Shown here: positions 32,901-40,207 of the stretch, piece after piece
Layout: every line of letters starts with the position of its first letter
Position numbering within the stretch: position 1 is the first letter of the stretch
Source of the DNA: Bolinopsis microptera
Taxonomy: Eukaryota; Ctenophora; Tentaculata; Lobata; Bolinopsidae
Direction: 5' to 3'
DNA: 64,000 nt
NCBI RefSeq assembly: GCF_026151205.1
Contig: NC_087073.1
Coordinates: forward strand, 16,883,837-16,947,836
The notes under the pieces: model-generated
What the model was told of the DNA's origin: nothing
Databases searched by the model: none
What the model saw: only the letters and a program-made list of their open reading frames with translations
Program-made: the position numbers and the translations under genes

Positions 32901-33074
32901 TGAACAATGTAAGCTCAATAATATTCATGTCATATATGCTCTACTGAAATTTTGGTCTCCTTTAAAATTAGTCGCCGAAAAATGTAGTCTCATGAAATTT
33001 GGTTAACAACAATTTTAGTCAAAAGTTTGACTAAATTTATGATAGACTAAATTTGTCGTTCTTAAGGTATATTA
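29931..33074. other. Gene-poor stretch with small hairpins
   Basis: No credible exon. Inverted repeats occur at about 31156-31200 (GTGATGATATCGATGTCA-type arms) and 31517-31546 (14-bp perfect stem TGTTGTAGGCCATG, two-base loop). A run of TTTAGTCAC/TTTGGTTAC motifs occurs at 32.2-32.4 kb and 33.0 kb. Confidence 0.4.
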
Positions 33075-33322
33075 GGGTCTGCCCACACTACGCCTCTATT
33101 CCCCGAAGGTCTGCCCACACTACGCCATGTGGTGACGGGCCACATGGCGTGGGTAAAAAAAAACCGGATTCACACAACAAGGCGCGTAGTGTGGGCAGAG
33201 CTCCCGCCAGTTGGCGTGGAAACTCTCGGGGAATAAAGGCACGGATTTTAAAAATCCGTGTCAGAATTCCGGTGTAGTGTGGGCAGACCTTCGGGGAATA
33301 GAGGCGTAGTGTGGGCAGACCC
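33075..33322. mobile_element. 248-bp MITE with 52-bp terminal inverted repeats
   Basis: Arms of 52 bp, beginning GGGTCTGCCCACACTACGCC, match with one mismatch. The motif GTCTGCCCACACTACGCC occurs twice within each arm. TTA flanks both ends as a 3-bp duplication, as expected for PIF/Harbinger-type insertions. There is no coding capacity. It lies 77 bp from the large nested element. Confidence 0.9.
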
Positions 33323-33399
33323 TTACCACCATAACTTGAAGACGCTTTGAGCTACGAACTCCAAAGTCTCTAGGCACATTTGGTTTGATAATTGAAGTG

Positions 33400-34392
33400 A
33401 GTAGAAGGGAATGTATGAAGGCCAGCCATCAAGTGACTCCCAGCCACTCACAGCACGCCCCCAGGTCACGTGACAGCATTTCACAAAGGTCACGTGACAG
33501 ATCACATGTCATGGAATTAAACTGGAATTAAACTGGAATTAAACCTAAATAGTCAGAGGGAACACTAACGAACCCGTCGTGACAATACATCAATGAAATA
33601 AATAACATAATTATAAAAAAATCATAAATAAGACCCAAAACACGTAAAAAAATTAACTTCACTACAATCTGTACGAAAAGGAAACAAGATCAAATATAAT
33701 AATTTAACCGGATTAAAGTGGGTAATGCACCGATAAGGTAATAAATTATGCAGGAGAGGTTCATAAAATTCACAAAGTTACTCCAAAAGTCAAAAATACA
33801 CTATCAAGAAAGATTACACACAAACTCAAAGACGGGCGTAAATTATGCAACTGTAACTCCGAATGAAAACAGTTCGAACACTCATTTAAGGGACACATGT
33901 CATGTAACCACGTGACAAGCTCGTTAATTAAATGACAAGGTCACGTGACAAGATAATTGACCAATGAGGAGCCAGAACGTCATGACGAATCAATCAATAA
34001 TCCCGACTAAAGGATCTAAAGTCTGATTAAACAGTTTGTCAAGCAGATTACCCGTCACTTGATTACCGGTCACGTGTTTAGCTTAAGCATCATGTGACAT
34101 GAATGTTATTTGAACCTCGAGATCACGTGACAGGAGTCACTTGATTACCCGTCAGAACGTCATGATGAATAAATTAATAATCCTGTCTAAAGGATCTAAA
34201 GTCTGATTAAACGGTTGCCAAGCACTTGGCTCCTGTCACTTGATTACTATACCGGTCAAATGATTCTTCACGATTTACCCCGGTCCAGTCACCACTCCAA
34301 ATAAGTAGAGGGTGACATAACGAAATGTGGTGTAGGGTTACCATCGCTCGACCTCCTGGAAATTACAAGTCTTATCATCAATTTTCTGACAT
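33400..34392 (+). repeat. Left terminal inverted repeat of the 5.6-kb element
   Basis: It matches 38275-38985 in reverse complement. It carries six CACGTG palindromes, mostly within GTCACGTGAC, and a diverged internal duplication around GGATCTAAAGTCTGATTAAAC (about 34012 and 34192). A further 43 bp at 35473-35515 continue the match to 38222-38271. Confidence 0.9.
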
Positions 34393-35083
34393 TGAAAAAG
34401 ATCTTGGAGTACATATCAATAGTAAGTTAGATTGGTCACATCACTGTGATATGATATACTCTAAGGCTAGTCAGAGGTTAGGCCTTCTAAAAAGAACATG
34501 TTACTTCACCAAGAACACTAAAAAACGTCGGGCCTTCTATCTATCTCAGGTTAGAAGTCATTTCGAACACTGCACAATTGTCTGGCGGCCTCATTCAGAA
34601 ACCTCGGTGGAGAAACTTGAATCGATACAAAAAAGAGGTATCAAGTGGATCCTTAATGATATTTACTTGAGCCTTAGGGACAAAAAAAGGTATTTCATAG
34701 CGTGTAAGGAACTAAATATCGTTCCACTCTCGGTAAGGTTTGATTACAAGGATATATTATATTTTCATAGTATTTTTTATGACATGTCAGTTGTGACATT
34801 TCCACCTTACTTACGACGTTTCATGGGAAGTAGGTTAAGGCGATCACATCTAGACGATCTCAGTATGATTAGTGACATTTCTCCTCAAGTTCCACAAAAC
34901 CTTACGTCAAGCCAGACCAGATGTTCAGGCATATCTAAGTCTTACTTTTACAGAGCACACATTCTTTGGAATAAACTCCCTTATGAATTAAGGGAAATCT
35001 CAAGGCCATCCGTGTTTAAAACCCATTTAATTAAGTACCTCTGGACAGTTCTAAACGACCATATAACATCCTCTGACAGTTAA
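34355..35083 (+). pseudogene. C-terminal part of a CR1-like LINE reverse transcriptase
   Basis: The frame (open from an ATG at 34325 that lies in flanking TIR sequence) encodes DLGVHINSKLDWSHHCD, then AFYLSQVRSHFEHCTIVWRP, LESIQKRGIKWI and SYFYRAHILWNKLPYELRE. This is the typical order after the catalytic core of CR1/jockey-type reverse transcriptases. The YADD-type core and endonuclease are absent. The first 38 bp are also in the right arm (38275-38312), so the LINE entered an arm before the two arms became identical. Not expected to be functional. Confidence 0.8.
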
Positions 35084-35529
35084 ACAATTTACCTTAATGT
35101 AACTATATTGTCTAAATATAAATTGATATGAAGTATAATTAATAAAATATGTTGAATAAAGTGTGTTTATAATTATGATTTATGGTACATTGTTATTTAT
35201 TATATTTATATTTTAGGCTGTAACCTTATTAGTTCAATGGAATAAACCTAGCATGCCTTGGTTGCAGCATCGCTTCACTTATAGGTGCATTTAGGGCCCG
35301 ATGTAATTGCTATGATCAGTTTACTGGTCAACTGGTGTTTCGGTGTCCCTTATTTTGTTTACACTCGGTCACTTGTCAAGGCATGTAAGGTCATTCGGCG
35401 ATATTTTCTTTGAAATAAAATGATGTATTTGTGTAACAATTTGAAAGTTTATTGATAAAAAAAAGAAAAAAAAGCAATAGCCACAGTATCTGAACCACAT
35501 TTTTACCCTTTAAGATATAACAACTGTTA

Positions 35530-35640
35530 GGTAGCCTAGTGGTTAGAGCATCCACCTTCTGCATAAAAGGTTCAGGGCGAATCCCATTGTCACCCTGCAG
35601 TCTAGGGAGTAGCAAAGGCTCCATACCATTGACTATTATT
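35530..35640 (+). mobile_element. tRNA-derived SINE
   Basis: An exact A-box match (TAGCCTAGTGG, 35532-35542) is followed at tRNA-like spacing by a degenerate B box (GGGCGAATCCC, about 35575-35585). Between them is an anticodon-arm-like stretch (CACCTTCTGCATAAAAGG). The pattern resembles tRNA-headed SINEs. The body is short and the 3' boundary is uncertain. Confidence 0.65.
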
Positions 35641-35830
35641 AACTACTAAATTTGCGTGTTATAAATTTGGTGAATTTCAAGAGACAAATAAAACTACCGT
35701 TTTATGATAATTTTTTTTGTTATCACCATAATCATAAATTGAAATCATCAAGAGTAAGATTGGGTACATAAATCAATCTATAACAGTTGTACGTTAATGG
35801 GGTTCTAGTTCAGGTAGCTAGTTCCACCAA

Positions 35831-36520
35831 CTACTTATTCAGATAAAGTTTGAGAATCTTATCGACAATAGTTGTGTTTTCGTTCATCAGTTTGTTTACA
35901 TCAGATAGACTTGTAGTGTTGATAACTGCATCCAATAGAGCTCGTTCTTCCAAACTTAAAATACCTGTTATGTCTTTTCCGTTGTCAATGAAACGCTGCT
36001 TCAAGTCCACAAACAATTCGGTTTTCATCATGTATGAGAATAACATGTCAAAACATTTATCTTGCTCTTTACACAATTTACTTTGTAACATGACGTCTAT
36101 AGATTTAAGTACTTTCGATATCTTTTTCTTGTGTGGTTGTTTGATTGGTACTCCTTTCCGCTTGCCTACGTGTTTCCAGTCAGTATCAGATTCTAACTCT
36201 TTAGCACTATATTCTTTGTTGGACTCATCATCGCTACTTGTTACACCACTAAATTCATCATCACCACTACCTGATACATCAGAGTTAGAACCACCTTGCT
36301 GAGATTCTTCAGAAACTATTGTATCAGCATCTGAACATACAGAATCAGGACCCTCCATTTTGACATCAGTCGCATCTGAGTTAGCTTTTGACAGTGGCTG
36401 TAGAATTGCAGAACTTTGATCTAACTCTCGGTTCTCTCGATGATACCTCCTAATGTGTGAGGACAGACTATATTTATTGGCAAAAGACTTGTCACAGAAT
36501 GAGCAGGTTACACAATTCAT
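35831..36520 (-). CDS. C2H2 zinc-finger protein inside the 5.6-kb element
   Basis: A 229-residue frame starts MNCVTCSFCDKSFANKYSLS and has one classical finger (Cys-x2-Cys-x12-His-x4-His, residues about 6-27). An acidic Ser/Asp-rich stretch follows (GSGDDEFSGVTSSDDESN, near 86-103), then a Lys-rich segment (GKRKGVPIKQPHKKKISKVL). The C-terminus is a helical-looking region without known family (SIDVMLQSKLCKEQDKCFDM onward). It is the only sizeable intact frame in the element. It might bind the repeated CACGTG sites in the arms or be a captured host gene. Neither is shown by the sequence. Confidence 0.6.
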   Translation of the reverse strand: MNCVTCSFCDKSFANKYSLSSHIRRYHRENRELDQSSAILQPLSKANSDATDVKMEGPDSVCSDADTIVSEESQQGGSNSDVSGSGDDEFSGVTSSDDESNKEYSAKELESDTDWKHVGKRKGVPIKQPHKKKISKVLKSIDVMLQSKLCKEQDKCFDMLFSYMMKTELFVDLKQRFIDNGKDITGILSLEERALLDAVINTTSLSDVNKLMNENTTIVDKILKLYLNK

Positions 36521-36560
36521 AACTGCAGTACAAACGTTTTATAATGCTATGCAACAACCA

Positions 36561-36865
36561 TTATATAGCAATAATCGCATAAAATCGCATAAAATCGCAA
36601 ATAATCGCAAAATAATCGCATATAATCGCATATATTAGCATATAATTGCATATAATAGCATAAAATTGCAAATAATCGCATATAATTGCAAAATAATTGC
36701 ATAAAATAGCATATAATAGCATATAATCGCATATAATAGCATATAATAATAGCATATAATCGCATCTAATCATATATAATCACGTATATTATCTCTTAAA
36801 ATCACATTTTATTATTTATACTCGCAAATAATTGCATATAATTGCAAATAATCGCATATAGTAGC
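36561..36865. repeat. GCATATAATCGCATATAATA array
   Basis: Degenerate runs of GCATATAAT, ATAATCGCA and ATAATTGCA with a 9-10 bp period. Tyr/Ile/Cys-rich open frames across it are artefacts of the repeat. Confidence 0.85.
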
Positions 36866-36892
36866 AGGGAGAATATGATCCAACTTATACAT

Positions 36893-37096
36893 TCAACATA
36901 TTAAAGATCTTTTCAAAGATTTATTTTCATGCTGATTGCCAAGCATCATCCTGGAGATGAAACTGTAACTCTTGAGTCTACCAAAGACTGCACCCAACAT
37001 GTAGGAATACTTCTTAGTGGGGATATTAAAGAACCACACCAGACAGGACAAGGAGATCATGGTGAATTCTACGTCAACTAGCCAGACGGAGATCAT
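36893..37096 (-). other. Short hydrophobic open frame in the 5.6-kb element
   Basis: The frame contains MISLSCLVWFFNIPTKKYSY then MLGAVFGRLKSYSFISRMML, like one transmembrane segment and a basic loop. An ag acceptor-like site directly precedes its Met. It could be a captured exon or chance. No family is recognised. Confidence 0.2.
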
Positions 37097-37301
37097 CTTC
37101 GAGATCTATCACTTTCTGGATTATCATTCATAACCAGTAGTCAGCGCACCATTGATTTCTGCTTTCAAATGATAACTGCTAATACTCTTGTCGATTTTAA
37201 TGCACAGAAACCAGAATTTGACCGGGACCGGGATAGCTCAAAATTGCCAAACCCGGTACCGGGATTCCCGGGAATCCCGGTCGATTACTGGTGCATGCAA
37301 C

Positions 37302-37665
37302 TGACCAGGTTTAGGTATCAGGTGATTTTTCCTGCAATTTGGTAGTTGTGAAACATCACCTTAGATTTCTGTTGTCACAAAACATACCTTTTTAGACCTT
37401 TTCTCAAAGCATATAAAAGCATATATTAGCATATAATAGCATATAATCACATGACCAGGTTTAGGTATCGGATGATTTTTCCTGCAATTTGGTAGTTGTG
37501 GAACATCACCTTGAATTTCCGTTGTTACAAAACGTACCTTTTTAGACCTTTTCTCAAAGCATATAATAGCATATAATAGCATATAATCGCATATAATAGC
37601 ATATAATAGCATATAATAGCATATAATCGCATATAATTGCATTTAATAGCATTCAATCACATATA
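37302..37665. repeat. 150-bp tandem duplication plus GCATATAATA array
   Basis: Copies begin at 37302 and 37452 with TGACCAGGTTTAGGTATC, and each ends in a GCATATAATA run. Each also encodes a short CFEKRSKKV segment on the minus strand, so the duplicated unit may derive from a coding transposon. Confidence 0.85.
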
Positions 37666-37681
37666 TAATCCATTGGGAGGG

Positions 37682-37765
37682 CGAAAATTGTCCCCCGACA
37701 ATTGCACCCCGACAATTGACCCCCCCGACAATTGACCCCTCGACAATTGACCCCCGACAATGTAA
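37682..37765. repeat. CCCCCGACAATTGA short satellite
   Basis: About five tandem copies of a 14-16 bp unit containing CAATTG. Confidence 0.85.
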
Positions 37766-38206
37766 CTCAATACAACATCACCTCATACCATACTCCTCAC
37801 GGTTCTCTTGATCTAGGAAGAATGCACCTTTGTTGTGGCTTACCTTTCTTATAAAGTAAGTTTCATTAAAAAATATTGATATTTGCTCAATTTATGGGAC
37901 GAAATCTACCAAATTTGGTGCGTATGCCCAAATATGGGCATATGGTTTTTGGCCCATAACTCAGTCATTTCATATACGAGTTCAGGAGACCACTAGCTAC
38001 AAGAAGAGCACCTAAAATCTGGGTTTTGGGCATGTTCAGGGTATTTGGCTAAATTGGGCCTAATTTGGACCAAATATGGGTGTGGCTGCCCCGCGGGCAC
38101 CGTTTGGCGGTTGGGGTCCGGGACCCCCTCAAAAGTTTGGTCACTGGTCTTAGTTTGTTGGTCAACTGCTATCTCGAAATCAAGTTTCACAAAAAAATAT
38201 CCATTG

Positions 38207-38231
38207 TCCCCCCCCCCCCCCCCCCCCCCCT
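38207..38231. repeat. Poly(C) tract at the inner end of the right arm
   Basis: An uninterrupted run of more than 20 C, followed by TTAAAGGGTAAAAATG. The inverse of that sequence lies at 35500-35517. Confidence 0.9.
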
Positions 38232-38274
38232 TAAAGGGTAAAAATGTGGTTCAGATACTGTGGCTATTGCTTAA

Positions 38275-38985
38275 ATGTCAGAAAATTGATGATAAGACTT
38301 GTAATTTCCAGGAGGTCGAGCGATGGTAACCCTACACCACATTTCGTTATGTCACCCTCTACTTATTTGGAGTGGTGACTGGACCGGGGTAAATCGTGAA
38401 GAATCATTTGACCGGTATAGTAATCAAGTGACAGGAGCCAAGTGCTTGGCAACCGTTTAATCAGACTTTAGATCCTTTAGACAGGATTATTAATTTATGA
38501 CGTTCTGACGGGTAATCAAGTGACTCCTGTCACGTGATCTCGAGGTTCAAATAACATTCATGTCACATGATGCTTAAGCTAAACACGTGACCGGTAATCA
38601 AGTGACGGGTAATCTGCTTGACAAACTGTTTAATCAGACTTTAGATCCTTTAGTCGGGATTATTGATTGATTCGTCATGATGTTCTGGCTCCTCATTGGT
38701 CAATTATCTTGTCACGTGACCTTGACATTTAATTAACGAGCTTGTCACGTGGTTACATGACATGTGATCTGTCACGTGACCTAATATTTCATTGATGTAT
38801 TGTCACGACGGGTTCGTTAGTGTTCCCTCTGACTATTTAGGTTTAATTCCAGTTTAATTCCAGTTTAATTCCATGACATGTGATCTGTCACGTGACCTTT
38901 GTGAAATGCTGTCACGTGACCTGGGGGCGTGCTGTGAGTGGCTGGGAGTCACTTGATGGCTGGCCTTCATACATTCCCTTCTACT
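38275..38985 (-). repeat. Right terminal inverted repeat of the 5.6-kb element
   Basis: The inverse of 33400-34392 without the roughly 290-bp left-arm insert. It contains seven CACGTG palindromes. The match resumes at 38222-38271 against 35473-35515, indicating that about 1.08 kb of LINE sequence was lost from this arm. Confidence 0.9.
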
Positions 38986-40207
38986 GAAGTGCTTCCCCAA
39001 AATTTCAAGTTAGTTGTTAACAACTAAGCCGAGTTATCACCATTTTAATATCTGCATGACGGATGCATGATTCACTCAATCAATGGCCTTATGGCCTGAT
39101 TGGTTGGAACCTGGTTATAGGACAGCTATAAAGCAAATTTCTTTGATTTTAAAGAAAGTCACTATCAGTATTTACTCAAAGTGATCAGATCATCATCCCC
39201 CAACATGCTCTGTATGTACCGCCTAATGCGGCACATTGATGCACGCTAGCAAATAAGTCCCGATGAGATCCCTCATCACTGATTGAGTGACGAAATAACT
39301 GATTAAGTTATAAGTGCCGAGATCACGTATCCGCAAGATTGATTAAATTGTAAACAACCAACTTGAAATTTTGGGAGAGCACTTAAATTATCAAAATCAA
39401 ATATTTCTGGAAACCTTGGAGTTCGTGGGAATCGGTTAGAGGGCGGAAGTCACGATCGATCGAGGGTGGAGGTCGCGAGGGCAAAAGACCCAAAAGCGGA
39501 AGTTTTCTAAAAGGTTGGAATCGAGGGCTCAAACGTTCGTAGCTCAAAACGTTTTCACTTTATAGTGACAATAGTGAAAAGAGGGAGTGGCTCGTTGAAA
39601 TTTTACGAAATTTTCAGGAAATCTAAGACCCATATCAGGAAATCTAAGACCCATATCTATATTCTCTGATATTTGTTAGCAATTCTGATACGAATCACGT
39701 AGGTTATAAAAGGGTTGCATGTGGTTAGTTACTTCTTGGCCACCTGGTATACTATCAGCGCCACAAATATGATTTGGGCCGGGTGCCTAGCTTATTAATA
39801 ACTAAAAGATAGCGATCATTAGCAATGGTGCCCTGATGTTGAAAATCAAAAGGCCATCGTAAATGGTTAAAGATTGGTGCAATGTAATGAAAACGTTAAA
39901 AGGCCCTGTTCACCGCCATGCAATTAATAAAAATAGTTTTTTAAGAAATTAGAACTATTCGACTGTTCGAGACGGAGAATGTTTTTAAAAAATGCAGCGG
40001 CTTTTTACACATTATTCATGTAAGTTTTCAATTTTAGATAGCAACGTCCAACATTGGTCATTGGTGGTCCAACAGGTCCAGCTGTGCATTTATAGTCACG
40101 TGATTCGTGATAAGGTTAAGCTTTATAGCTAGGAGATTGTGTTATTGTTAAGTATAAATACAATGATATAATTTGACAACCTTTGCGGTACCTTAAATTT
40201 ATTAACA

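Follow-up and report, generated by a model that had tools for sequence, protein, structure and literature searches.

The window analysed here is a 64,000-nucleotide stretch of the ctenophore Bolinopsis microptera (NCBI RefSeq assembly GCF_026151205.1, contig NC_087073.1, positions 16,883,837 to 16,947,836), belonging to contig C2 of a genome searched over 264.65 Mb. At 33400-38985 it contains an element that is a decayed giant palindrome, most of its right arm having been lost. The element is a member of a family of transposons built as whole palindromes, which have the ends and 6-bp target-site duplications (TSDs) of Polinton/Maverick elements and share their termini with a capsid-bearing Polinton; one Polinton copy of the same family has grown ends. 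The best explanation, given a probability of about 0.72, is that the giant palindromes are snap-back, defective-interfering-like derivatives of protein-primed Polintons that have become fixed as transposon families.

A family defined by its tips and target duplications

The family was collected by searching the whole genome with a 35-base tip pattern, allowing up to 3 mismatches, with the reversed pattern as control. The pattern has 48 genomic matches, 24 on each strand, and the reversed control has 0, so the matches are not due to chance. The 48 tips resolve into 22 two-ended elements, comprising 2 Polintons and 20 palindromes (window copy included), with four tips left unpaired (C7:5418183, C8:16613658, C2:15279231 and a second right tip at C13:4365784). 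All 22 elements have AG...CT ends with tips AGTAGA or AGTAGT, and an identical 6-mer flanks both outer junctions in 21 of them, compared with 0/2033 displaced controls; the 6-bp duplication proposed for the window element alone is thus a property of the family. The exact (AGT)2 end motif occurs within the family only in L022, and also in the DNA polymerase B (PolB) palindromes described below. End motifs (AGT)2//(ACT)2 and 6-bp TSDs are stated for Mavericks in PMC8097293. At C13:4353898-4365818 (L022, L023), two right tips sharing one flank sequence lie 3.1 kb apart in a single palindrome; either the arm and its flank were duplicated in tandem, or the assembly is at fault here.

Structure of the palindromes

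The 20 non-Polinton members are giant palindromes of 5.6-9.6 kb. On self-comparison, the arms of 16 of these align as a single stretch of 2.39-3.4 kb, giving them the very long inverted arms (at least 2.39 kb) and short centre of foldback-type elements. The arms exceed 2.6 kb at 95.6-100% identity in 14 palindromes, and are free of mismatches in L011 (2755/2755) and L031 (2838/2838). Those of L034 span 2.39 kb within the stretch fetched (99.5%), and a gapped self-alignment matches L028 to its reverse over the full 6.7 kb at 98%; a gap-free midpoint test of L028 gave agreement at chance level (0.24-0.32), a result put down to indels shifting its axis. In the other four (the window copy, L013, L026 and L027), insertions, deletions or hybrid arms disrupt the palindrome. 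The centre measures 0.88-1.17 kb in 12 of 14 palindromes and 1.8 and 2.3 kb in the other two; it is A+T rich in all seven inspected, and in L011 is full of tandem repeats.

When the outer ~1 kb of each arm is compared, the closest relative is the element's own other arm in 18 of the 22 elements, the mean identity of arms between elements being 90.8%, a value lowered for some pairs by rearranged copies. A tree built from the arms groups 18 of the 22 pairs as sisters, 14 of them with support of at least 0.87. The outer arm also contains clusters of an E-box type motif: for example, L011 has five TCACGTGA within 540 bp (1001-1540), versus 8 across the other 58 kb of the window. A factor of the host or of the element might bind at this cluster.

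Polintons with the same ends

The larger of the two Polintons (18.4 kb, C1:8045654-8064101) is flanked by the TSD ATGGGT and has terminal inverted repeats (TIRs) of ~550 bp, 98.9% identical over 551 columns. The smaller (12.0 kb, C7:16159956-16172003) has the same tips and the TSD GGCTAG. Over ~500 bp, the TIRs of the 18.4-kb Polinton are homologous to the ends of L011 (88.5% at the left end, 93.6% at the right). An autonomous Polinton/Maverick contains protein-primed PolB and a retroviral-type integrase; the 18.4-kb element has an integrase, a capsid gene and remnants of PolB, and none of the four frames scanned in the window element is a Polinton core gene, as the original prediction had noted. 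That prediction also proposed a non-autonomous Polinton derivative, a guess supported, through the check it suggested itself, by the finding that 2 of 22 same-tip elements are Polintons, with core genes lying between the same TIRs. The 6-bp TSD, the AG...CT ends with an AGT-type motif and the homology of the TIRs to a core-gene Polinton place the palindromes among Polinton-derived non-autonomous elements.

Gene content was read from one or other of the two Polintons. The integrase consists of two adjoining frames (rve, E 3.5e-5, under Pfam's cut-off, and 0.016), probably separated by a short intron, and the next closest integrases found in the genome share no more than 45% identity with it. 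Weak matches were found for an ATPase-like P-loop protein (AAA_14, 0.0013; Pox_A32, 0.034) and a protease-like frame (Peptidase_C48, 0.016), and PolB is represented by pieces (PF03175, 0.00027 and 0.0048). The capsid protein has no Pfam match and no PDB match by sequence. The predicted structure of a homologue, P0011 (95% identical; pLDDT confidence 87.7), matches those of PBCV-1 (E 1.8e-17) and mavirus (7.5e-15), indicating that the protein is a double jelly-roll capsid protein; among its homologues is one from Mnemiopsis leidyi, with 75% identity across 80% of the query.

The 18.4-kb Polinton sits in a transporter-like open frame (MFS_1, E 1.5e-8, for the right part, L041 1276-1944), with a similar-looking frame on its left (L040 27-773). 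At C9:8585060-8592588, two inverted copies of a capsid gene enclose an integrase; this may be a further Polinton whose ends have grown.

Grown ends and probable copying

The TIR of the 12.0-kb Polinton is ~1.2 kb long, compared with ~550 bp in the 18.4-kb copy, and is 99.75% identical over 1205 columns, a few of these columns lying outside the tips. The sequence past the C-terminal part of PolB is gone, and the left 1.2 kb stands inverted in its place, with an overlap of at most a base or so at the junction. The grown ends are flanked by their own TSD, GGCTAG, so that either this Polinton transposed once its ends had grown, or the change reached precisely to its tips. In the window copy, the outer 201 bp identical between the arms take in the beginning of a repeat that interrupts the left arm; beyond this point, native sequence resumes in the right arm with ~29 bp duplicated. 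Both the 12.0-kb Polinton end and the segment 38782..38868 of the window look like products of copying from the tip inward.

The window copy

The boundaries originally proposed for the window element hold. The tips at its two coordinates are exact inverses of each other, the outer 201 bp of the arms are 100% complementary (201/201), the ends are AG...CT, and the duplication GAAGTG lies on both sides. The element interrupts an older inverted repeat (arms 38987-39023 and 39348-39384, 89% complementary), the other arm of which gives the uninterrupted sequence when compared by eye. Its parts are as follows.

33394..33399 (no strand): target-site duplication GAAGTG, left copy, from the sequence.
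33400..33516 (+): left arm, outermost 117 bp, with tip AGTAGAAGGGAATGTATGAAGGCC; 93% to L028 positions 1-117, tip common to the family.
33517..33893 (no strand): foreign repeat within the left arm; absent from the L025 and L028 arms, with further copies in the genome.
33894..34396 (+): left arm resumed, with TCACGTGA motifs; 95% to L028 104-599.
34397..35471 (+): 3' piece of a presumed LINE-like element, ending in an A-rich tail; found only in the left arm, where it splits the L028-like sequence exactly.
35472..37838 (+): inner part of the left arm, containing the zinc finger (ZF) gene and arrays of ~10-bp A+T-rich iterons; 97% to L028 598-2966.
35831..36520 (-): ZF gene, 229 amino acids from Met, with one C2H2 finger, an acidic linker and a helical C-terminal part; PF00096, E 1.8e-5; 10 homologues; intact frame.
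37839..38229 (no strand): unrelated filler in place of the missing palindrome centre, second ZF gene and inner part of the right arm; matches neither L028 nor L025.
38230..38781 (-): right arm, surviving part; 91-94% to the L028 and L025 right arms.
38782..38868 (no strand): piece of the foreign repeat 33517..33893, right-arm copy; the arms are identical for 201 bp from the tip, after which native right-arm sequence follows.
38869..38985 (-): right arm, outermost 117 bp, with inverse tip; from complementarity to the left tip and comparison with L028.
38986..38991 (no strand): target-site duplication GAAGTG, right copy, from the sequence.

The left arm spans 33400-37838 including two insertions, corresponding to a true arm of ~3 kb, and only the outer part of the right arm (38230-38985) is left. 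The arm length of 700 bp in the original prediction is therefore what a deletion left behind, and a plain short-arm Polinton miniature element is rejected on the ~3-kb arms. About the first 85 bp of the foreign repeat 33517..33893 are present in the right arm too. The fragment 34397..35471, which overlaps a 255-residue open frame (34316-35083), is provisionally taken to come from a long interspersed nuclear element (LINE), as it was in the original prediction; its frame has no Pfam match. Just to the left of the element, at 33074-33323, lies a separate palindromic repeat with 53-bp arms (98%).

The zinc finger gene

In an intact arm, the ZF frame has 229 amino acids from Met (235 from stop to stop), including the single C2H2 finger (PF00096), and is transcribed towards the tip. 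The gene is present in both arms of 19 of the 20 palindromes, sometimes broken, and the window copy retains one. The original prediction, supported as to Polinton ancestry, missed the giant palindrome and with it that this open reading frame is a family gene; a passenger of the window copy alone is ruled out by its two-arm presence. The structure model has a mean pLDDT of 57.7, with values above 70 only for the finger and the C-terminal helices and low values in the acidic linker. By sequence, the protein matches only zinc fingers in the PDB (E 0.015 or worse), and a search of viral contigs gave 5 pattern matches, 0 confirmed.

Genome-wide, 127 ZF matches, minus 25 small, weak or duplicate pieces, leave 102, of which 76 form 38 inverted pairs within 10 kb; random placement would give 0.2. 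Nineteen of the 38 pairs lie outside the window's family, and 6 have the gene facing inward. Within elements, the codons of the two copies are identical in 10 of 14 testable pairs. Between subfamilies, the ratio of nonsynonymous to synonymous substitution (dN/dS) is 0.33-0.41 (15 pairs: 12 of this family versus three other ZF sequences, and 3 among those), pointing to purifying selection on the gene in the source lineages. The L011 and window frames, which represent two groups within the family, differ by ~2 synonymous versus >20 nonsynonymous changes (dN/dS 2.8-3.5), too few for positive selection to be claimed.

Palindromes with a polymerase gene

A second type of palindrome has AGTAGT ends and an intact PolB in each arm, and occurs at 4 loci with 7 uninterrupted frames of 1261 amino acids; its TSD is known from one locus (C9:662254-674315), the three further loci being deduced. 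This PolB forms a separate lineage: the frame has no stop, and its C-terminal half matches PF03175 (E 2.4e-9). A Pfam search with the whole frame does not list PF03175, and a PDB search by sequence returns mainly zinc fingers and endonuclease VII, with no polymerase. At C9:662254-674315, the arms are identical over 3475 bp (the stretch fetched) around a 303-bp centre, the outer arms are 96.7% identical (1 mismatch and 23 gap columns), the ends are AGTAGTATGTAA and the TSD GACGTC lies on both sides. The first 12 bases are those of the tip of the ZF palindrome L022. At C8:6278687-6287079 lies a fifth pair of inverted PolB genes, whose frames are broken. At five unpaired loci with PolB 74-84% identical to the 1261-residue protein, a distant ZF-like frame (29-33%) lies 1.7-2.7 kb downstream, suggesting that the ZF is likely a gene of this PolB lineage.

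Neighbourhoods were surveyed for 33 of 39 PolB, 30 of 32 integrase and 37 of 64 capsid matches, one per place and for relatives of the queries only; 29 of the 30 integrase places have a capsid match. PolB-palindrome tips also delimit C5:18059736-18070047, C11:6783760-6791428 and C12:15097586-15106053, where no PolB, ZF, integrase or capsid match is found among the matches listed.

Origin of the palindromes

Protein-primed replication of Polintons has been deduced from their gene content and end motifs. During such replication, a displaced strand or a switched polymerase would copy one end back on itself, yielding a unit of two ~3-kb inverted copies of the Polinton terminal repeat with the ZF gene and A+T-rich iterons, around a centre mostly of 0.9-1.2 kb. 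This structure fits a defective-interfering snap-back genome. The unit would start replication at its identical ends, using PolB provided in trans, and would integrate by means of a Polinton integrase. The arms would be renewed at each round, and because either arm could serve as template for the other, they would be nearly identical within an element and less so between elements. Judging from its domains and from distant relatives found next to PolB, the ZF protein may tentatively be viewed as a regulator or DNA-binding protein of Polinton origin.

Several observations weigh against this account. The own arm is not the closest relative in L013 (a hybrid), L026, L027 and L029 (4/22), the arms of L013, L026, L027 and the 18.4-kb Polinton are not sisters (4/22), and 4 of the 18 sister pairs are weak, three having no support value and L024 a value of 0. 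L011 alone has no exact TSD (ATCATC/ATCAGC). The integrase, ATPase and protease assignments are weak by sequence. PolB is broken or cut in both family Polintons as read, although introns may be present, and the family integrase occurs at 2 places (99-100% identity), both in these same Polintons. No working helper has been identified, since no uninterrupted PolB frame was seen in a family member, although some palindromes must be very young. Among the matches surveyed, relatives of the family integrase or capsid queries are not found within 20 kb of the PolB loci of the 1261-residue lineage. The ZF gene, in the genome search, is unmatched in both family Polintons, so the palindromes are not simple deletions of these two, and dN/dS is ~0.94 among 18 recent ZF copies (153 pairs), which thus show no constraint. 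Finally, ordinary gene conversion could also equalise the arms.

The snap-back account might be extended to a divided system, a tentative and rather doubtful proposal, in which full Polintons coexist with palindromic satellites, each with one gene (PolB or ZF) in both arms and a common end signature. These would complement one another in trans, as multipartite segments or stable satellites, and would be made repeatedly by snap-back replication.

The main rival holds that the palindromes were formed and homogenised on the chromosome, without any part being played by fold-back replication. One inverted arm would be copied to the other either by ectopic gene conversion or in a break-induced manner, an idea put forward for Galileo and for segmental duplications. 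The 201-bp tract of the window copy, running inward from the tip and ending inside an insertion before native sequence is regained, is the expected trace of an aborted break-induced copy, and TIR growth by conversion is described for Galileo in PMC3573991. However, the grown ends of the 12.0-kb Polinton have their own TSD, palindromes recur with PolB or other ZF genes, and diverged arms persist in some copies (96.9% in L029, 97.9% in the window copy). Formation on the chromosome is judged improbable.

Some transposons form inverted dimers, and the two right tips at the C13 locus recall such an event; each palindrome could then be two elements inserted or recombined head to head, with no single mobile unit. 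This is very hard to reconcile with the same arm order at unrelated sites and with one tip pair and an exact outer TSD in 19 of 20 palindromes. A foldback class unrelated to Polintons, its ends being similar through convergence, would account for the long foldback-like arms and for the lack of a Polinton core gene among the four window frames scanned, but is scarcely credible given the same tips and the ~500 bp of TIR homology to Polintons. Assembly duplication, raised in the original prediction as a possible undoing of the arms, is rejected as a general cause: the design is not a one-off, and the 20 palindromes sharing it have differing flanks, outer TSDs, arms that are not always identical, and mostly asymmetric centres.

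Comparison with known systems

The palindromes resemble Polinton/Maverick elements (Polintoviruses) in their 6-bp TSD, AG/CT ends (AGTAGT in some copies), long TIRs and termini in common with a core-gene copy. They differ in that the ZF palindromes have no detected core gene, consist mostly of inverted arm and contain one accessory gene in duplicate. Long TIRs are not new, the filter of a Polinton-like virus study having admitted TIRs of up to 8 kb (PMC12220804), and growth of Polinton inverted repeats was reported earlier, according to PMC3573991 (its references 12, 43 and 48).

Among viruses, a similar design is found in the snap-back defective-interfering genomes of adeno-associated virus, described in PMC8235507 as self-complementary from one end, short and helper-dependent, some with regulatory regions. 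These genomes occur as populations of virions and use a different initiator of replication, whereas the palindromes sit in the chromosomes between TSDs and propagate as families of transposons. Adenoviruses likewise have snap-back or fold-back defective genomes.

Drosophila Galileo/Foldback elements, of which Galileo is not known to be protein-primed, offer a third comparison. They share long, dynamic inverted ends and TIR growth by side-to-side copying, and Galileo differs in belonging to the P-element superfamily and in having TIRs of up to ~1.25 kb (PMC3573991). No description of palindromic or ctenophore Polintons was found in the titles and abstract openings of the best-ranked open-access matches, which is weak evidence of absence; as far as this limited search shows, families of transposons consisting entirely of a palindrome, with the ends of Polintons and a gene in duplicate, are new. 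Palindromes with their best match within the same copy, together with a Polinton with one end copied over, would be genomic footprints of protein-primed replication, making its mechanism testable from sequence. Should the palindromes be satellites, animals would have among their transposons an equivalent of the defective-interfering genomes of viruses, with genes possibly split between helper and satellite.

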